Positions 27,130 to 36,303 of a stretch of 46,946 nt of DNA are shown here, piece by piece. The DNA lies in assembly GCA_022340265.1 (NCBI GenBank), contig JAJDOH010000154.1, positions 1-46,946 on the forward strand, in the 5' to 3' direction. The stretch comes from Deltaproteobacteria bacterium. Its GTDB lineage: Bacteria; Desulfobacterota; DSM-4660; Desulfatiglandales; Desulfatiglandaceae. Below the pieces are notes generated by a model. The model did not search any database and was not told the origin of the DNA. It saw only the letters and a program-made list of their open reading frames with translations. A program made the position numbers and the translations under genes. Numbering within the stretch: position 1 is the first letter of the stretch; each line of letters opens with the position of its first letter.

Positions 27130-27158
27130 TTGACTTCAAATCCCAGTCATATTAGCTT
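27130..27158 (+). promoter_or_regulatory. Promoter of the beta-oxidation operon
   Basis: TTGACT (27130-27135) followed after 17 bases by TAGCTT (27153-27158), a weak -10. The predicted start of transcription falls at about 27165, the first base of the palindrome described next. The 12-mer TTGACTTCAAAT at this -35 is identical to that at the GNAT promoter. Confidence 0.45.
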
Positions 27159-27164
27159 TTCAAA

Positions 27165-27186
27165 AATGAATGAGAATTCATTCATT
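27165..27186 (+). promoter_or_regulatory. FadR-type (TetR family) operator
   Basis: A palindrome with nine-base arms around GAAT; its core reads TGAATGA-GAAT-TCATTCA. This fits the operator of the TetR-family fatty-acid regulator FadR (YsiA) of Bacillus subtilis, TGAATGA-N4-TCATTCA. It lies just downstream of the -10 box and about 80 bases before the first beta-oxidation gene, a position suited to repression relieved by long-chain acyl-CoA. Confidence 0.65.
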
Positions 27187-27263
27187 ATTTCTCGAGGCGG
27201 CTTTTTGCGGTCAATCCCGTTTGAAGCGCAATTTTCACGTACGTACACGCTAAGGAGGTGTCT

Positions 27264-29696
27264 ATGGACAAAAAAATGAATAGGGCCGGCGTCATTGGGG
27301 CGGGCGTTATGGGAGCCACCATCGCCGCCCAGCTTGCCAATGTGGGCATCGAAACGGTTTTGCTCGACATTGTTCCCCCGGAGTTCACGGAGGACGACAA
27401 AAAAAAGGGCCTCACACCGGACAGCAAGAAGTTCAGAAACAAATTCGGCAATAACGGATTGAACATTGCTTTAAAGTCTAAACCGGCATCCTTTTACATT
27501 CCCAAAAACGCCAAACTGATCACCATCGGCAACATGGAAGACGATCTCGCCCTGTTGAAGGACGTGGACTGGATAATCGAGGTGGTGGTGGAACGGCTGG
27601 ATATCAAGCAAAAGGTCTTTGAAAAGATTGAGACCGTGTTAACACCCGGCACCATCGTTACCTCAAATACCTCGGGCATCCCGGCCAAAGACATGTGTGA
27701 AGGCCGTTCAGAAAATTTTCAAAAGTATTTCGCCATTACCCATTTCTTCAATCCTCCGCGCTATATCAAGCTTCTGGAAATCGTACCTGGACCCGACACC
27801 CTTCCCGAGGTGGTGGAAACGCTGGCCGAAGTCTGCAAGAGGAAAGTGGGCAAGGGGATCGTCTATGCCAAAGATACCCCCAATTTTGTGGCCAACCGGA
27901 TCGGCACCTTCAGCATGTTTTCCGTCATCAACGCCATGATGGAGCTGGGGCTTTCGATAGAAGCGGTCGACAAACTGACGGGTCCCGTCGTTGGCTTCGC
28001 TAAAAGCGCCACCTTCAGAACCGGAGATCTGGTCGGGCTGGACACACTTTTGCACGTGGCCGACAATGTGTATGACGGTTCCCCTAACGATGAAAAGCGA
28101 AATATTTTTCAAGCGCCTGAATTCATTAACAAGATGCTCGAAAAAGGCCTTCTGGGTGAAAAAACCAAACAGGGCTTTTACAAGAAGAGCAAGGATGCCG
28201 ACGGGAAGCGTGTAATTTTGACCCTTGATTATAATACGCTGGAACATACCCCCCAGGAAAAGGTGAAATTCAGCTCCTTGGAGGCGGCCCAAAATGCCTC
28301 CGGCACAGGCAATAAAATCAAAGCCCTTTATTACGCCGAAGATCCGGCAGGAACATTTACCTTCAAGACGCTCAGCGAAACCCTTATCTATGCTGCCAAC
28401 CGCATTCCTGAAATTGCCGACGATATCGTCAACGTGGACAATGCGCTGAAATGGGGATTCGCCAGAAAACTGGGGCCCTTCGAGGCTTGGGACGCCATCG
28501 GCGTAGCGAAATCCGTGGCCAAGATGAAAGAAACCGGTTACGAGATCCCCGCCTGGGTCGCCGAGATGCTCGATAGCGGCAAAGAGACCTTTTATAAAAA
28601 GGAGGCCGGGAACCTCTATTTTTACGATATCAGCAGCAAAGACTATCAGGAAGTTCCGGTAAAACCCGGCATCATTCTCCTGCCGTCACTGAAGGCGCAG
28701 GAAAGACTGGTTACGGAAAACACCGGCGCTTCCCTCATCGATCTGGGTGACGGCGTTGCCTGTCTTGAATTCCACACGAAAATGAACGCCATGGGCGACG
28801 ATATCGTCAGCATGGTCATGAAGTCCGTGGATATTGTGAGCAACGACTTTGACGGCCTGGTCATCGCCAACCACGGCACCAACTTTTCCGCGGGCGCCAA
28901 TCTGCCGCTGATCCTCTTTACGGCCCAGGAAGAGGAATGGGATGACCTGGATTGGATGATCAAAGTGTTTCAGGATTCATTCATGAAATTGAAATACCTT
29001 GACAAACCGGTGGTCGCGGCCCCGGCGGGCCTGGCTTTGGGCGGCGGATGTGAAATCTGTCTCGCTTCCGACCGGGTGCGCTTTGCCGCGGAGACCTACA
29101 TGGGCCTCGTGGAAGCGGGTGTGGGACTGGTTCCCGCCGGTGGTGGTACCAAGGAGATGTTTATTCGAAACACGGACCACCTCTTTGAAGTGAAAAGGGG
29201 TGGTCTCTACCCCAAACAGATTGAAATGATGCCTTATATCGCGCGGGCTTTTGAAACCATTGCCATGGCCAAGGTCGCCACTTCCGGCCCGGAAGCCGTT
29301 CAAATCGGATACCTGAAAGACACGGACAAGATGACCGTCAATCGCGATTACCAGATCCAGGACGCCAAAAATACCGTGTTGGCCCTGAACCTGGAGGGAT
29401 ACACCCCACCCAGGCCCAGGGATGATCTGCGAGTGCCCGGAGAAAACACGTTTGCCATGATCAAACTCGGTCTCTGGACCATGCACGAACAGAACTACAT
29501 TACGGACCATGACGTAACGGTCTCCACCAAGATCGGATATATCCTTTGCGGTGGCGCCGTTCAGGAAAATACCGTGGTTACGGAACAGTACCTTCTTGAT
29601 TTGGAACGGGAGGCCTTTTTAAGCCTTCTGGGCGATCCCAAGACACAGGCCCGGATACAGCACATGCTGACCACCGGCAAACCGCTCAGAAATTAA
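27264..29696 (+). CDS. 3-hydroxyacyl-CoA dehydrogenase/enoyl-CoA hydratase fusion
   Basis: The 810-residue enzyme carries out the hydration and NAD-dependent oxidation steps of fatty-acid beta-oxidation. Domain order is dehydrogenase first, hydratase last, as in B. subtilis FadN (YusL) and opposite to E. coli FadB. GAGVMG (12-17) is the NAD site, ITHFFNPPRYIKLLEIVPG holds the catalytic His of the dehydrogenase, and the hydratase domain (about 480-680) has GTNFSAGANL, APAGLALGGGCEI and YMGLVEAGVGLVPAGGGT with the two catalytic Glu. AAGGAGGT five bases before the ATG sets the start; an in-frame GTG six bases earlier lies within that site. First gene of the operon. Confidence 0.93.
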   Translation: MDKKMNRAGVIGAGVMGATIAAQLANVGIETVLLDIVPPEFTEDDKKKGLTPDSKKFRNKFGNNGLNIALKSKPASFYIPKNAKLITIGNMEDDLALLKDVDWIIEVVVERLDIKQKVFEKIETVLTPGTIVTSNTSGIPAKDMCEGRSENFQKYFAITHFFNPPRYIKLLEIVPGPDTLPEVVETLAEVCKRKVGKGIVYAKDTPNFVANRIGTFSMFSVINAMMELGLSIEAVDKLTGPVVGFAKSATFRTGDLVGLDTLLHVADNVYDGSPNDEKRNIFQAPEFINKMLEKGLLGEKTKQGFYKKSKDADGKRVILTLDYNTLEHTPQEKVKFSSLEAAQNASGTGNKIKALYYAEDPAGTFTFKTLSETLIYAANRIPEIADDIVNVDNALKWGFARKLGPFEAWDAIGVAKSVAKMKETGYEIPAWVAEMLDSGKETFYKKEAGNLYFYDISSKDYQEVPVKPGIILLPSLKAQERLVTENTGASLIDLGDGVACLEFHTKMNAMGDDIVSMVMKSVDIVSNDFDGLVIANHGTNFSAGANLPLILFTAQEEEWDDLDWMIKVFQDSFMKLKYLDKPVVAAPAGLALGGGCEICLASDRVRFAAETYMGLVEAGVGLVPAGGGTKEMFIRNTDHLFEVKRGGLYPKQIEMMPYIARAFETIAMAKVATSGPEAVQIGYLKDTDKMTVNRDYQIQDAKNTVLALNLEGYTPPRPRDDLRVPGENTFAMIKLGLWTMHEQNYITDHDVTVSTKIGYILCGGAVQENTVVTEQYLLDLEREAFLSLLGDPKTQARIQHMLTTGKPLRN

Positions 29697-29765
29697 ATAC
29701 TGCCATAGAGATTCTGTCAATGACGTTAAGCAGCCGATAACTGATGAATGACAGGGGAGGAAAAC

Positions 29766-30953
29766 ATGATGAAAGAAGCCGTAATAGTCGCCGCTTGCAG
29801 GACGGCAGCCGGAAAGGCTCCTAAAGGAATGTTGAAACATACCCGTCCGGAAGAGATGGGATGCGCCGTTTTGGGAGACTTAATGAGACGGGCGGGTGAC
29901 CTTGACCCGGCGGTCATTGATGACGTGGTGATCGGGTGCACATTTCCCGAGGCGGTACAGGGACTGAACCTTGGAAGAGTACTGGTGATGAGCATGGGAT
30001 GGCCGGACCGCATTCCCGGCATGACCGTCAACCGATTCTGTTCTTCCGGACTTCAGTCCATCGCCATCGCCGCTGAAAAAATCATGTGCGGGTTTTCGGA
30101 AGTGGTCGTGGCCGGCGGTGTTGAGAGCATGAGCCAGATCCCCATGGGAGGTAGCATGATGTATCCCAACCCGGCCCTTGTGGACATGCGGCCTGGCGCT
30201 TTCACCGGCATGGGATTGACCGCTGAAAATGTGGCGGAGCGATTCAATATCGGCCGGGACGAGCAGGATGAATTTGGCGCCAAGAGCCAGCAAAAGGCTG
30301 AAAAAGCCGTTAAAGAGGGGCGTTTTAAAAGTCAGATCGTGCCACTGAAAGTGAAAAAGCAAAAACAACTGCCCAACGGCAGATTTGAGTTTGAAAAGGT
30401 GATCTTTGACCAGGACGAAGGGGTTCGCCCCGGAACCACGAAAGAAGGCATCAGCAAGATTCCACCGGCTTTTAAACCGAACGGCAGCGTTACCGCCGGC
30501 AATTCTTCGCAAACCAGTGATGCCGCGGCGGCCGTTTTGCTCATGAGCAAAGAGAAAGCCAAAGAGCTGGGGCTCAAACCCATGGCCACCTTCCGATTCC
30601 ATACGGTGGAAGGATGCGAGCCCGAAATCATGGGCGTCGGTCCGGCGGTGGCCATCCCCAAGGTTCTCAAACTGGCGGGGATGAGCCTGGACCAGATAGA
30701 CCTCATTGAATTAAACGAAGCCTTTGCAGCCCAGGCCATTTACTGCATCAATGAGCTGGGAATCAATGAAGAAATCACCAATGTCAACGGCGGGGCAATT
30801 GCCCTGGGGCATCCTTTGGGATGCACGGGAAGCAAACTGACCACCCAGTTGATCTATGAAATGCAGGAGCGGAAAGCCCGATGGGGACTGGTATCCATGT
30901 GCATCGGTTTCGGAATGGGTGCCGCTGGCCTCTTTGAAGTTGAAGATTACTAA
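29766..30953 (+). CDS. Acetyl-CoA C-acyltransferase (thiolase)
   Basis: A 395-residue thiolase that cleaves 3-ketoacyl-CoA in the last step of beta-oxidation. All signatures are present: [13 protein letters not shown] with the acyl-carrying Cys92, [40 protein letters not shown] with the catalytic His, and [13 protein letters not shown] with the second catalytic Cys. GGGGAGG five bases before the ATG decides the start; a preceding in-frame ATG would lie upstream of that site. It follows the multifunctional enzyme after 69 bases and forms with it a FadN-FadA-like complex or pair. Confidence 0.94.
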
Positions 30954-30996: not shown

Positions 30997-32781
30997 ATGG
31001 CGGAAAAAAAAGTTTTTGTGGGCGGAGACTTCCTTATTTCGAATGCGACCCCCGAAGAAGTATTTACGCCTGAAGATTTCACGGATGAACATCGCATGAT
31101 CATGGATATGGCCAAGGATTTCGTACAAAAAGAAGTCAACCCCCATATCGATCAACTGGAAGAAAAAGATGAGGCGCTCACCCTTTCCCTGCTGGCGAAA
31201 GCCGGCGAACTGGGGCTATTGGGAACCGATATTCCGGAAGAATACGGCGGCATGGGACTGGATAAAGTGAGCACCACCATCGTTACGGAAGCCCTGGGGG
31301 TTGCCGGTTCTTTTGCCGTGGTCTACGGAGCCGATACGGGCATCGGGACGCTGCCGATTGTCTATTTCGGAAACGAGGAGCAGAAGCAGAAATACCTGCC
31401 CAAACTGGCCGGCGGTGAATGGTGCGGCGCCTACTGCCTGACGGAACCGGGTGCCGGATCGGACGCACTGAATGCCAAAACCAAGGCGGTCCTCTCCGAA
31501 GACGGAAAATATTATATCATCAACGGTGAAAAGATGTTCATCACCAACGCCGGTTGGGCCAGCAGCTTTATTGTCTACGCCAAGGTGAATGGGGAAGATT
31601 TTACCGGTTTTATCGTTGAAAAGTCTTTCAAAGGCGTCTCCACCGGCAAAGAGGAGAAGAAAATGGGGGCCCATGGGTCCTCCACGCGACCCGTCATCTT
31701 CGAAGACGCGGAAGTTCCCGTGGAAAACGTTTTGTTTGAAATCGGAAAAGGGCATAAAATCGCCTTTAACATTTTAAATATCGGCCGGTGGAAACTGGGA
31801 GCAGCAACGGTTGGCGGCTGTAAAGGCTGCGTCACGGAAGCGGTCAAGTACGCCAACGGCCGTATTCAGTTCAAAGTGCCCATCAGCAGTTTCGGCCTGA
31901 TTAAAACCAAACTGGCCGACATGGCGGTCAAAGGGTACATGAGCGAAAGCATCATGTACCGGCTGGCGGGAATGTTTGACAACAAACTGGGAACCCTGGA
32001 TGCCGAGGCTAAAAAGAGCGGTGAAGAAAATGCCAAGGCCATTGAAGAGTATGCGGCGGAATGCTCCATCGCCAAGGTGTACGGCTCAGAAACCCTTGAT
32101 TTCTGTGTCGATGAATATGTGCAGATTCTGGGTGGTTACGGATTTTGCGCGGAATACCCGGCGGAGCGGTATTACCGGGATTCCCGTATCAACCGCATCT
32201 GGGAAGGGACCAACGAGATCAACCGTATGCTGATCCCGGGAACGCTCATGCAGCGCGCCATGAAAGGACGGCTGAATCTGCTGCAGGCGGCGCAGGCCAT
32301 TCCGGGAGAGCTCATGAGCTATTCGCCCCTTTCCGTGCAATTGCCGGATACGCCCCTGGCACTTCAGGAACACATGATCAAAATGATGAAGAAGCTTGCT
32401 CTGATGGTGGCCGGCGGCGCCGGCATGAAGTTTCAGCAGAAACTGGCCAAAGAGCAGGAAGTGCTGGGCAAACTGGCGGATATCATCATTGAGATATTCG
32501 CCATGGAAAGCGGCCTTTTAAGAACGCTCAAGATGATTGACAAAAACGGCGAGGAGAAAACAAAGTACCAGATCGACGCCGTCAAGGTTTACATGGACGA
32601 AGCGATCCCCAAAATTGAAGGCTGGGCCAAACAGATCATTGCCTATGTGGAAGAAGGCGACATGCTTCGCACCCAGCTGGCAGGTGTCAAGAAACTGGCC
32701 CGTTATCAACCCATAGACGCCGTGACTTTGAAGCGGGAGATTGCAGACCGCATCATCGACCTGGAAGCCTATCCTTTCTAA
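30997..32781 (+). CDS. Acyl-CoA dehydrogenase, long form
   Basis: The 594-residue flavoenzyme catalyses the first, FAD-dependent step of beta-oxidation. The acyl-CoA dehydrogenase blocks are WCGAYCLTEPGAGSDALNAKT, KMFITNAGWASSFIVYAKV and GYGFCAEYPAERYYRDSRINRIWEGTNEI, in which Glu403 of WEGT is the expected base. A C-terminal extension of about 170 residues, as in VLCAD and FadE-like long forms, contains the segment duplicated in the decayed copy at 38450-38732. The start is set by AAAGGAGC eight bases upstream; the frame is open for 47 more residues inside the thiolase gene. Last gene of the operon; a terminator follows after 27 bases. Confidence 0.94.
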   Translation: MAEKKVFVGGDFLISNATPEEVFTPEDFTDEHRMIMDMAKDFVQKEVNPHIDQLEEKDEALTLSLLAKAGELGLLGTDIPEEYGGMGLDKVSTTIVTEALGVAGSFAVVYGADTGIGTLPIVYFGNEEQKQKYLPKLAGGEWCGAYCLTEPGAGSDALNAKTKAVLSEDGKYYIINGEKMFITNAGWASSFIVYAKVNGEDFTGFIVEKSFKGVSTGKEEKKMGAHGSSTRPVIFEDAEVPVENVLFEIGKGHKIAFNILNIGRWKLGAATVGGCKGCVTEAVKYANGRIQFKVPISSFGLIKTKLADMAVKGYMSESIMYRLAGMFDNKLGTLDAEAKKSGEENAKAIEEYAAECSIAKVYGSETLDFCVDEYVQILGGYGFCAEYPAERYYRDSRINRIWEGTNEINRMLIPGTLMQRAMKGRLNLLQAAQAIPGELMSYSPLSVQLPDTPLALQEHMIKMMKKLALMVAGGAGMKFQQKLAKEQEVLGKLADIIIEIFAMESGLLRTLKMIDKNGEEKTKYQIDAVKVYMDEAIPKIEGWAKQIIAYVEEGDMLRTQLAGVKKLARYQPIDAVTLKREIADRIIDLEAYPF

Positions 32782-34746: not shown

Positions 34747-36303
34747 TCATTTTGACGCCACATAATAATTTCGCATCATTCCCATATCCTCGTGTTCCAG
34801 ATTATGGCAATGATACAAGAACAATCCCGGATAATCGGCAAAATCAACCAGTATTTTAATGCCCTCACCGGGCATCAGCAAAACCGTGTCCTTCAATCCT
34901 TCATCCACATAGCCGTCATGATGAACGCCGCTTCTTTCAATAACGTGAAACTGTTTTCCGTGCAGGTGAATGGGGTGCGCCATGTTCATCATGTTCATCA
35001 TTCCGCCGTTCGTATTATGGAATTCCCAAATCTCTTTTGAACCCAATCGGACAATCTCGTCGTCGGCCACTGCGTCCATTTGAAATACCCGGCCATTGAT
35101 CGACCATTGCATATGTCGCATGGTCAGAAAGAATTGCTTGGGATTGAAATGGTTGACAGCTTCATCCTGCCGGGGAGGGCTGATCTTAGAGAGTTGCGCC
35201 GGTAAGGTTTGTCTCCCAGCCTCCTGTTTCACAACCTTGATTTTGAAGATGGAAAATGCAGCGCCGTTTGGAAGCGCTTGATGCTGGCCCCTTGGGCCGC
35301 CGAATCTATCACCGGCGTCAAAAGGAAGACTTGCCAGGAAGGTCTCAAAACCGACCGCATCATCACTGAAATCGACCCAGATCTCCAATCGTTCAGCAGG
35401 ACCCAAAAAAGCATATCGGCGTTGGATCGGTTTTTCCAGCAACCCGCCGTCTGTCCCGATGATGGTGAGCGGACGACCGTCTTCCCATGCGAGTTTATAA
35501 ATTCGCGAATTGGAGCCGTTCAGCAACCGCAGGCGATAGCAACGTGTCGATACGGGCAGTGTGAAATAGGGCATGCCGTTCACCATGATCAAATCACCCA
35601 AAAACCCACTCATCCGCTCCATCATGTGTCCTGACATATAGACCAGCTGATTGTTCATATCAAAGGTTCGGTCCTGAATTACCATGGGAACATCATATTC
35701 GCCTTCAGGCAGGCCCAGTGCCTGCTCCTCATCGTCGGATACCAGGAAAAGGCCTGCCAGGCCTCCATAAACCTGAGGGCCGGTTCTACCGTGGGGGTGG
35801 GGATGATACCAATAGGTGCCGGCTCTGTTGTTAACTTCGAATTCGTAGAGGTAGGATTGTCCCTGTGGAATGACATAACGCGGGTGTCCGTCCATGACCG
35901 CGGGAACATGAAGGCCATGCCAATGCACTATCGATTCTTGAGGGATTAAGTTGGTAAACCGGATTCGGATTTTTTCTCCGCGATGAACGTTTATGATCGG
36001 GCCCAGGTAGCTTCCTGGTATTTCCACGATACGGGAACTGTCGCCTTTCTGTATCGTTGCATGATACCGCCACACGGCGGTCCGGGCGCCCGGAAAGATG
36101 GCAATTTTGTCCGGCCGGGCCGAAAGGGAAATATCAAGGTCCGGGACAAATTGCGTATCTGGATCTTGAGCGGATGCGAAACGACCCATACCAGGGAAAA
36201 AATTTCCCGTTAACAGCCCCAGCACTCCAAAACCGGCCAGTTTCAGAAACTGTCGTCTGGCGTTCCCACGTTCAGCGCTTGTGTCCGGCGTTTGATTTGC
36301 CAT
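34747..36303 (-). CDS. Tat-exported multicopper oxidase
   Basis: A 518-residue three-domain multicopper oxidase. A twin-arginine signal (RRQFLKLAGFGVLGLL, residues 16-31, then a cleavage site near ASAQ) sends it folded to the periplasm. Copper motifs are HWHG (127-130), HPHPHG (167-172), HPIHLHG and HCHNLEHEDMGMM, where Cys499 and the flanking His ligate the type 1 and type 3 coppers and Met509 is the probable axial ligand. The C-terminal Met-rich GGMMNMMNMAHP suggests Cu(I) handling, so copper or other metal detoxification, as for CueO/CopA-like oxidases, is likely. The upstream SHOCT-domain gene, 20 bases away, is broken. Confidence 0.93.
   Translation of the reverse strand: MANQTPDTSAERGNARRQFLKLAGFGVLGLLTGNFFPGMGRFASAQDPDTQFVPDLDISLSARPDKIAIFPGARTAVWRYHATIQKGDSSRIVEIPGSYLGPIINVHRGEKIRIRFTNLIPQESIVHWHGLHVPAVMDGHPRYVIPQGQSYLYEFEVNNRAGTYWYHPHPHGRTGPQVYGGLAGLFLVSDDEEQALGLPEGEYDVPMVIQDRTFDMNNQLVYMSGHMMERMSGFLGDLIMVNGMPYFTLPVSTRCYRLRLLNGSNSRIYKLAWEDGRPLTIIGTDGGLLEKPIQRRYAFLGPAERLEIWVDFSDDAVGFETFLASLPFDAGDRFGGPRGQHQALPNGAAFSIFKIKVVKQEAGRQTLPAQLSKISPPRQDEAVNHFNPKQFFLTMRHMQWSINGRVFQMDAVADDEIVRLGSKEIWEFHNTNGGMMNMMNMAHPIHLHGKQFHVIERSGVHHDGYVDEGLKDTVLLMPGEGIKILVDFADYPGLFLYHCHNLEHEDMGMMRNYYVASK

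Follow-up and report, generated by a model that had tools for sequence, protein, structure and literature searches.

A predicted Bacillus-type FadR operator at the fadBAE promoter of a Desulfobacterota genome, and its candidate regulon

A palindrome located upstream of the beta-oxidation genes in the window (the whole 46,946-nucleotide stretch of DNA analysed here, from contig JAJDOH010000154.1 of assembly GCA_022340265.1) is very probably the operator of a FadR of the Bacillus type (TetR/YsiA) that is encoded elsewhere in the genome. The sequence TGAATGAGAATTCATTCA matches TGAATGA-N4-TCATTCA with no mismatches, and its perfect arms extend to AATGAATGA-GAAT-TCATTCATT (Table 1). It lies just downstream of a TTGACT promoter and 79 bases 5' of the fadB ATG. 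A first-pass annotation had reported TGAATGA-GAAT-TCATTCA at this site, following a promoter and ahead of a complete beta-oxidation operon. The box was confirmed as an exact match, and the TTGACT element and the fadBAE genes were likewise present, while 'complete' proved slightly generous, as neither an acyl-CoA synthetase nor an ETF gene is found within the operon. The likely start codons of fadB and fadE are ATG codons; the listed ORFs open at GTG 27258 and at 30856, respectively. A gene for a multicopper oxidase lies near this operon, at window positions 34747-36303; the lineage is presumed to be anaerobic.

Table 1. Features of the fadBAE promoter and operon, in window coordinates.
Feature	Coordinates	Strand	Evidence
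Putative -35 hexamer TTGACT	27130..27135	+	sequence; TTGAC 5' of the operator in 27/27 non-redundant fadB promoters
Putative weak -10 hexamer TAGCTT	27153..27158	+	predicted from sequence; 17-base spacer; start ~27165
FadR-type operator TGAATGA-GAAT-TCATTCA	27167..27184 (perfect arms 27165-27186)	.	sequence, footprint in relatives
Ribosome binding site AAGGAGGT	27252..27259	+	sequence
fadB-type 3-hydroxyacyl-CoA dehydrogenase / enoyl-CoA hydratase (3HCDH + ECH)	27264..29696 (likely ATG 27264)	+	ORF list, family models
fadA acetyl-CoA acyltransferase (thiolase)	29748..30953	+	ORF list, family models
fadE acyl-CoA dehydrogenase	30997..32781 (likely ATG 30997)	+	NF058590, 893 bits, cut-off 600

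The putative fadB promoter TTGACT/TAGCTT is supported by conservation. As the pair was not called in a strict sigma-70 consensus scan, its -10 hexamer is entered in Table 1 as a prediction. Given the start implied by the spacing of the two hexamers, the box would span about +1 to +22. In a pattern search, the exact box was found once in the whole 4.95 Mb genome, against 0.018 copies expected from base composition. When up to two mismatches were allowed, it matched 17 places, compared with 4 for the reversed control pattern; the extra places were set aside as background, being mostly within ORFs, with the exception of one at C210:650 that is described below.

The box is conserved at fadB promoters. 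Use of FadB as a query in a scan of genomes returned 35 loci, the nearest of which were from a Desulfobacteraceae MAG and strain NaphS2 (90-91% identity). Among the 21 close loci (at least 72% identity), a box with 0-2 mismatches is present 5' of fadB in 16, a contig end cuts inside the box in one, and no box was seen nearby in four (L065, L067, L068 and L069). In two loci (L055 and L059), the box is positioned ~280-330 bases upstream of fadB. An exact box is still found at distant fadB loci in Desulfobacterota, including Desulfatitalea, where protein identity falls to 43%. The 14 arm bases carry an average of 1.84 bits per base over 27 non-redundant fadB promoters, compared with 0.62 for the spacer, 0.23 for the upstream flank and 0.11 for the downstream flank; an A preceding and a T following the box are also favoured. 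The fadBAE promoters of family f21 include two exact boxes that are 57-66 bases apart (L208, L209, L210, L254, L255 and L256), which suggests cooperative or two-promoter control in that family.

The genome includes 21 matches to TetR_N, representing about 20 TetR genes. None is on the contig of the window, in agreement with the first-pass annotation, which had found no TetR gene in the window and had proposed that a FadR-like TetR repressor controls fatty-acid oxidation in this lineage. A candidate is encoded at G000:C60:1-609 (hereafter C60), and its identity, together with the distribution of the box described below, supports that proposal. The C60 product consists of TetR_N (PF00440, 55.1 bits) and TetR_C_4 'YsiA-like' (PF08359, 88.7 bits) domains, both above the cut-off, and its nearest homologues of solved structure, matched over the full length at 3e-40 to 1e-38, are FadR of B. 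halodurans and B. subtilis (5gp9, 5gpa, 1vi0 and 3whb), with the next unrelated TetR structure at 3e-13. Against the NCBIfam equivalog model for Bacillus FadR (NF053878), C60 gave a full-length match of 193.8 bits, where the cut-off is 200, and the other TetR proteins of the genome that were tested scored 42-66 bits. C60 was the top match among the TetR proteins of this genome to Paenibacillus FadR (128 bits, followed by 71; the query carried one V-to-M change). The recognition helix reads VADGTIYIYF in C60 and VADGTIYLYF in FadR from B. subtilis and Paenibacillus; the pattern VADGT[IV]Y[LI]YF was present in every FadR aligned but absent from the four TetR paralogues of this genome included in the alignment. 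The gene immediately after C60 is etfB. The C60 contig opens with CATTCATTAACGG, within the right half of the box belonging to fadR itself, and in relatives a complete box is found 5' of fadR, usually past a TTGACA promoter, with etfB and etfA following. The other TetR genes of the genome have no nearby box with fewer than three mismatches. C60 is therefore assigned, from sequence, as a FadR orthologue of the Bacillus type, a TetR protein and not a GntR-family FadR of the E. coli type.

Two other features of TetR genes were recorded in these genomes. The fadR orthologue of one genome (L103, G010:C29) includes one in-frame TGA, which may reflect an error, a pseudogene or recoding. A further TetR gene in the source genome (L033 448-1713, G000:C306) encodes a tandem TetR of 421 residues, in which one frame holds two TetR_N domains, and similar proteins of 395-459 residues are encoded by relatives.

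The first-pass annotation had proposed a scan for the motif at the genome level, and its occurrence proved to be non-random. In the 41 nearest genomes, 47 exact boxes were found, compared with 2 matches for a control pattern read backwards, and 45 of the 47 could be placed by their neighbouring genes. Most precede fadB (19) or fadR (17), and the remainder lie at AMP-forming acyl-CoA synthetase genes (3), at a second operon of etfBA and an acyl-CoA dehydrogenase gene (3), and, once each, at an acyl-CoA dehydrogenase gene, at an FeS oxidoreductase gene and at a transporter operon facing fadR. One of the other two boxes is inside an ORF. The box overlaps the start region of fadR in several genomes, and the distance from box to gene is variable. 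In L168, L169 and L170, an operon for a branched-chain-type ABC transporter that includes a gene for an AMP-binding acyl-CoA ligase faces fadR across the box; transporter and ligase may be co-regulated for uptake and activation of an acid. In the source genome, the one-mismatch site at C210:650 (TGAATGAACGCTCATTTA) has an acyl-CoA synthetase-like gene on one side and an acyl-CoA dehydrogenase gene on the other, and this site is kept in two genomes of the same genus.

Across 297 Desulfobacterota genomes, the exact box was found in 74 and the control pattern in 2, while a FadR homologue, defined by an E-value of 1e-25 or lower, was identified in 133. Both were present in 69 genomes, FadR only in 64, the box only in 5 and neither in 159 (Fisher p 5e-24, uncorrected for phylogeny). 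Two of the five genomes with the box only (G136 and G236) have a FadR-like TetR gene at the site. The box is within 100 bp upstream of fadR in 27 of the 29 mapped genomes that carry both on one contig. The annotation had also given TGAATGA-N4-TCATTCA as the FadR (YsiA) box of B. subtilis, and the same box, TGAATGAATAGTCATTCA, was read directly 5' of fadR in a B. subtilis record, which is labelled as a plasmid and has a frame-broken fadR ORF. In Paenibacillus, TGAATGAGGATTCATTCA precedes fadR-etfBA and faces a cluster encoding an FeS protein, FadB and FadA. The conservation of regulator, operator and a small regulon between Bacillota and Desulfobacterota points to one of two origins: ancient inheritance, or a transfer in which the regulator moved along with its site.

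In several other families of Desulfobacterota, exact boxes are also located at TTGAC promoters of operons for energy conservation. These include that of a dsrA operon (four genomes of family f44; dsrA 603 bits, cut-off 393), the aprBA(-qmo) promoter beside sat (three genomes of f7; aprA 931 bits, cut-off 642), those of hdrCBA-like genes (f7 and f37), TmcD-TmcC promoters (three genomes of f44), and the promoters of F-type ATP synthase (f25 and f19), membrane pyrophosphatase (f25) and RnfABC (f19). Loci with boxes at aprBA-qmo, dsr, TmcDC or F-ATPase genes are L215, L219 and L261 (f7) and L239, L292, L294 and L295 (f44), with further such loci at L242, L291 and L296 (f44), L284, L287 and L289 (f25), and L298 and L302 (f19). 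One example of each operon had its gene identity checked against family models; the others were identified by blastp to that example or by reading of the N-terminus. The sat gene was rejected as a target in f7, where the TTGAC promoter points to aprBA on the other side. In the families with such boxes, an exact box is also kept at fadR, and the recognition helix of FadR is unchanged. The FadR regulon may have widened to the respiratory chain and energy conservation in these families, a reading that is about as likely as not; otherwise, a second regulator would read the same box. No boxes at energy-conservation operons were seen in the family of the window itself.

The boxes at these operons bear on the alternative that the palindrome at fadB is a true operator but is read mainly by another regulator, either a further TetR protein or a factor of a different type. 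A genome with about 20 TetR genes offers other readers, and the boxes 5' of energy-metabolism genes that have no connection with fatty acids might point to a second one. However, among the paralogues aligned only C60 carries the recognition helix of Bacillus FadR, the box is found 5' of fadR itself in almost every relative, and box and FadR occur together, with the same box at fadR in B. subtilis. Another principal reader is therefore improbable.

More unlikely still is a role of the palindrome in RNA, as a hairpin at the 5' terminus of the fadB transcript that acts in stability or attenuation. Perfect arms at about +1 to +22 could indeed pair in the transcript, but it is the letters of the arms, beyond mere pairing, that are fixed across diverged promoters, as expected of a protein-binding site rather than of an RNA stem. 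The variable distance to the gene, the overlap with the fadR start in several genomes and the identical letters in Bacillus and Paenibacillus also count against a hairpin. The least probable explanation is a chance palindrome. Palindromes with up to three mismatches are common, with 6 in the window where 3.4 are expected, but an exact copy of this box is expected far less than once per genome and is conserved at most of the close fadB loci; chance was rejected on the basis of this footprint. An operator for the Bacillus-type FadR encoded at C60 is by far the most probable explanation.

In the mechanism we propose, a FadR dimer produced from the fadR-etfB-etfA operon would bind TGAATGA-N4-TCATTCA over the start of fadBAE and block the promoter, and would likewise repress the promoter of fadR-etfBA. 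In the source genus, FadR probably also acts between the acyl-CoA synthetase-like gene and the acyl-CoA dehydrogenase gene. Bacillus FadR is released from DNA by long-chain acyl-CoA. Given this behaviour and the homologous ligand domain, FadR here would similarly leave the DNA when long-chain acyl-CoA accumulates, and beta-oxidation and the electron carrier ETF would therefore be switched on together. Binding, repression and acyl-CoA as the ligand are predictions.

The system of the window belongs, by sequence, with the FadR (YsiA) system of the TetR family known in B. subtilis (Matsuoka et al. 2007, J Biol Chem, as cited in PMC6449355), and is expected to work alike. The two have in common the box, a near-identical recognition helix, the YsiA-like ligand domain, links to etfBA and fad operons, and apparent autoregulation. 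They differ in that fadR here directly precedes etfBA with no enoyl-CoA hydratase gene, that fadB and the genes after it are transcribed separately from fadR, that the host is a relative of sulfate reducers, and that some Desulfobacterota families have the box before respiratory genes. In Desulfococcus multivorans, a TetR-type regulator designated FadR2 adjoins etfA5B5 and fadF and was seen in myristate-grown cells, with fadAB elsewhere on the chromosome (PMC5109826); the passages of that paper found on FadR2 give neither an operator nor a regulon for it. FadR2 is probably the same regulator as the FadR described here, so the protein has already been noted in the phylum, and what is added here is its operator and regulon. 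The FadR of Thermus thermophilus is also a TetR regulator of fatty-acid degradation, with the consensus TTRNACYNRGTNYAA (PMC5597230), which the box in the window does not match. In other Proteobacteria, the corresponding regulators are the GntR protein FadR of E. coli, PsrA, and FadP, which is reported to be unique to Betaproteobacteria (PMC5343134). These share the physiological role of the FadR found here, and E. coli FadR belongs to a different protein family.

If the FadR regulon has widened as suggested in the other families, acyl-CoA would induce fat oxidation together with sulfate respiration or energy conservation, and the control of dsr, apr and ATP-synthase genes would depend directly on how much acyl-CoA is available. 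A search of the literature found no paper that states a link between FadR and sulfate-reduction genes. To our knowledge, little has been described of how uncultured sulfate reducers and their relatives regulate fatty-acid oxidation, and this analysis supplies a candidate regulator, an operator and a small, testable regulon for fatty-acid oxidation in these bacteria.
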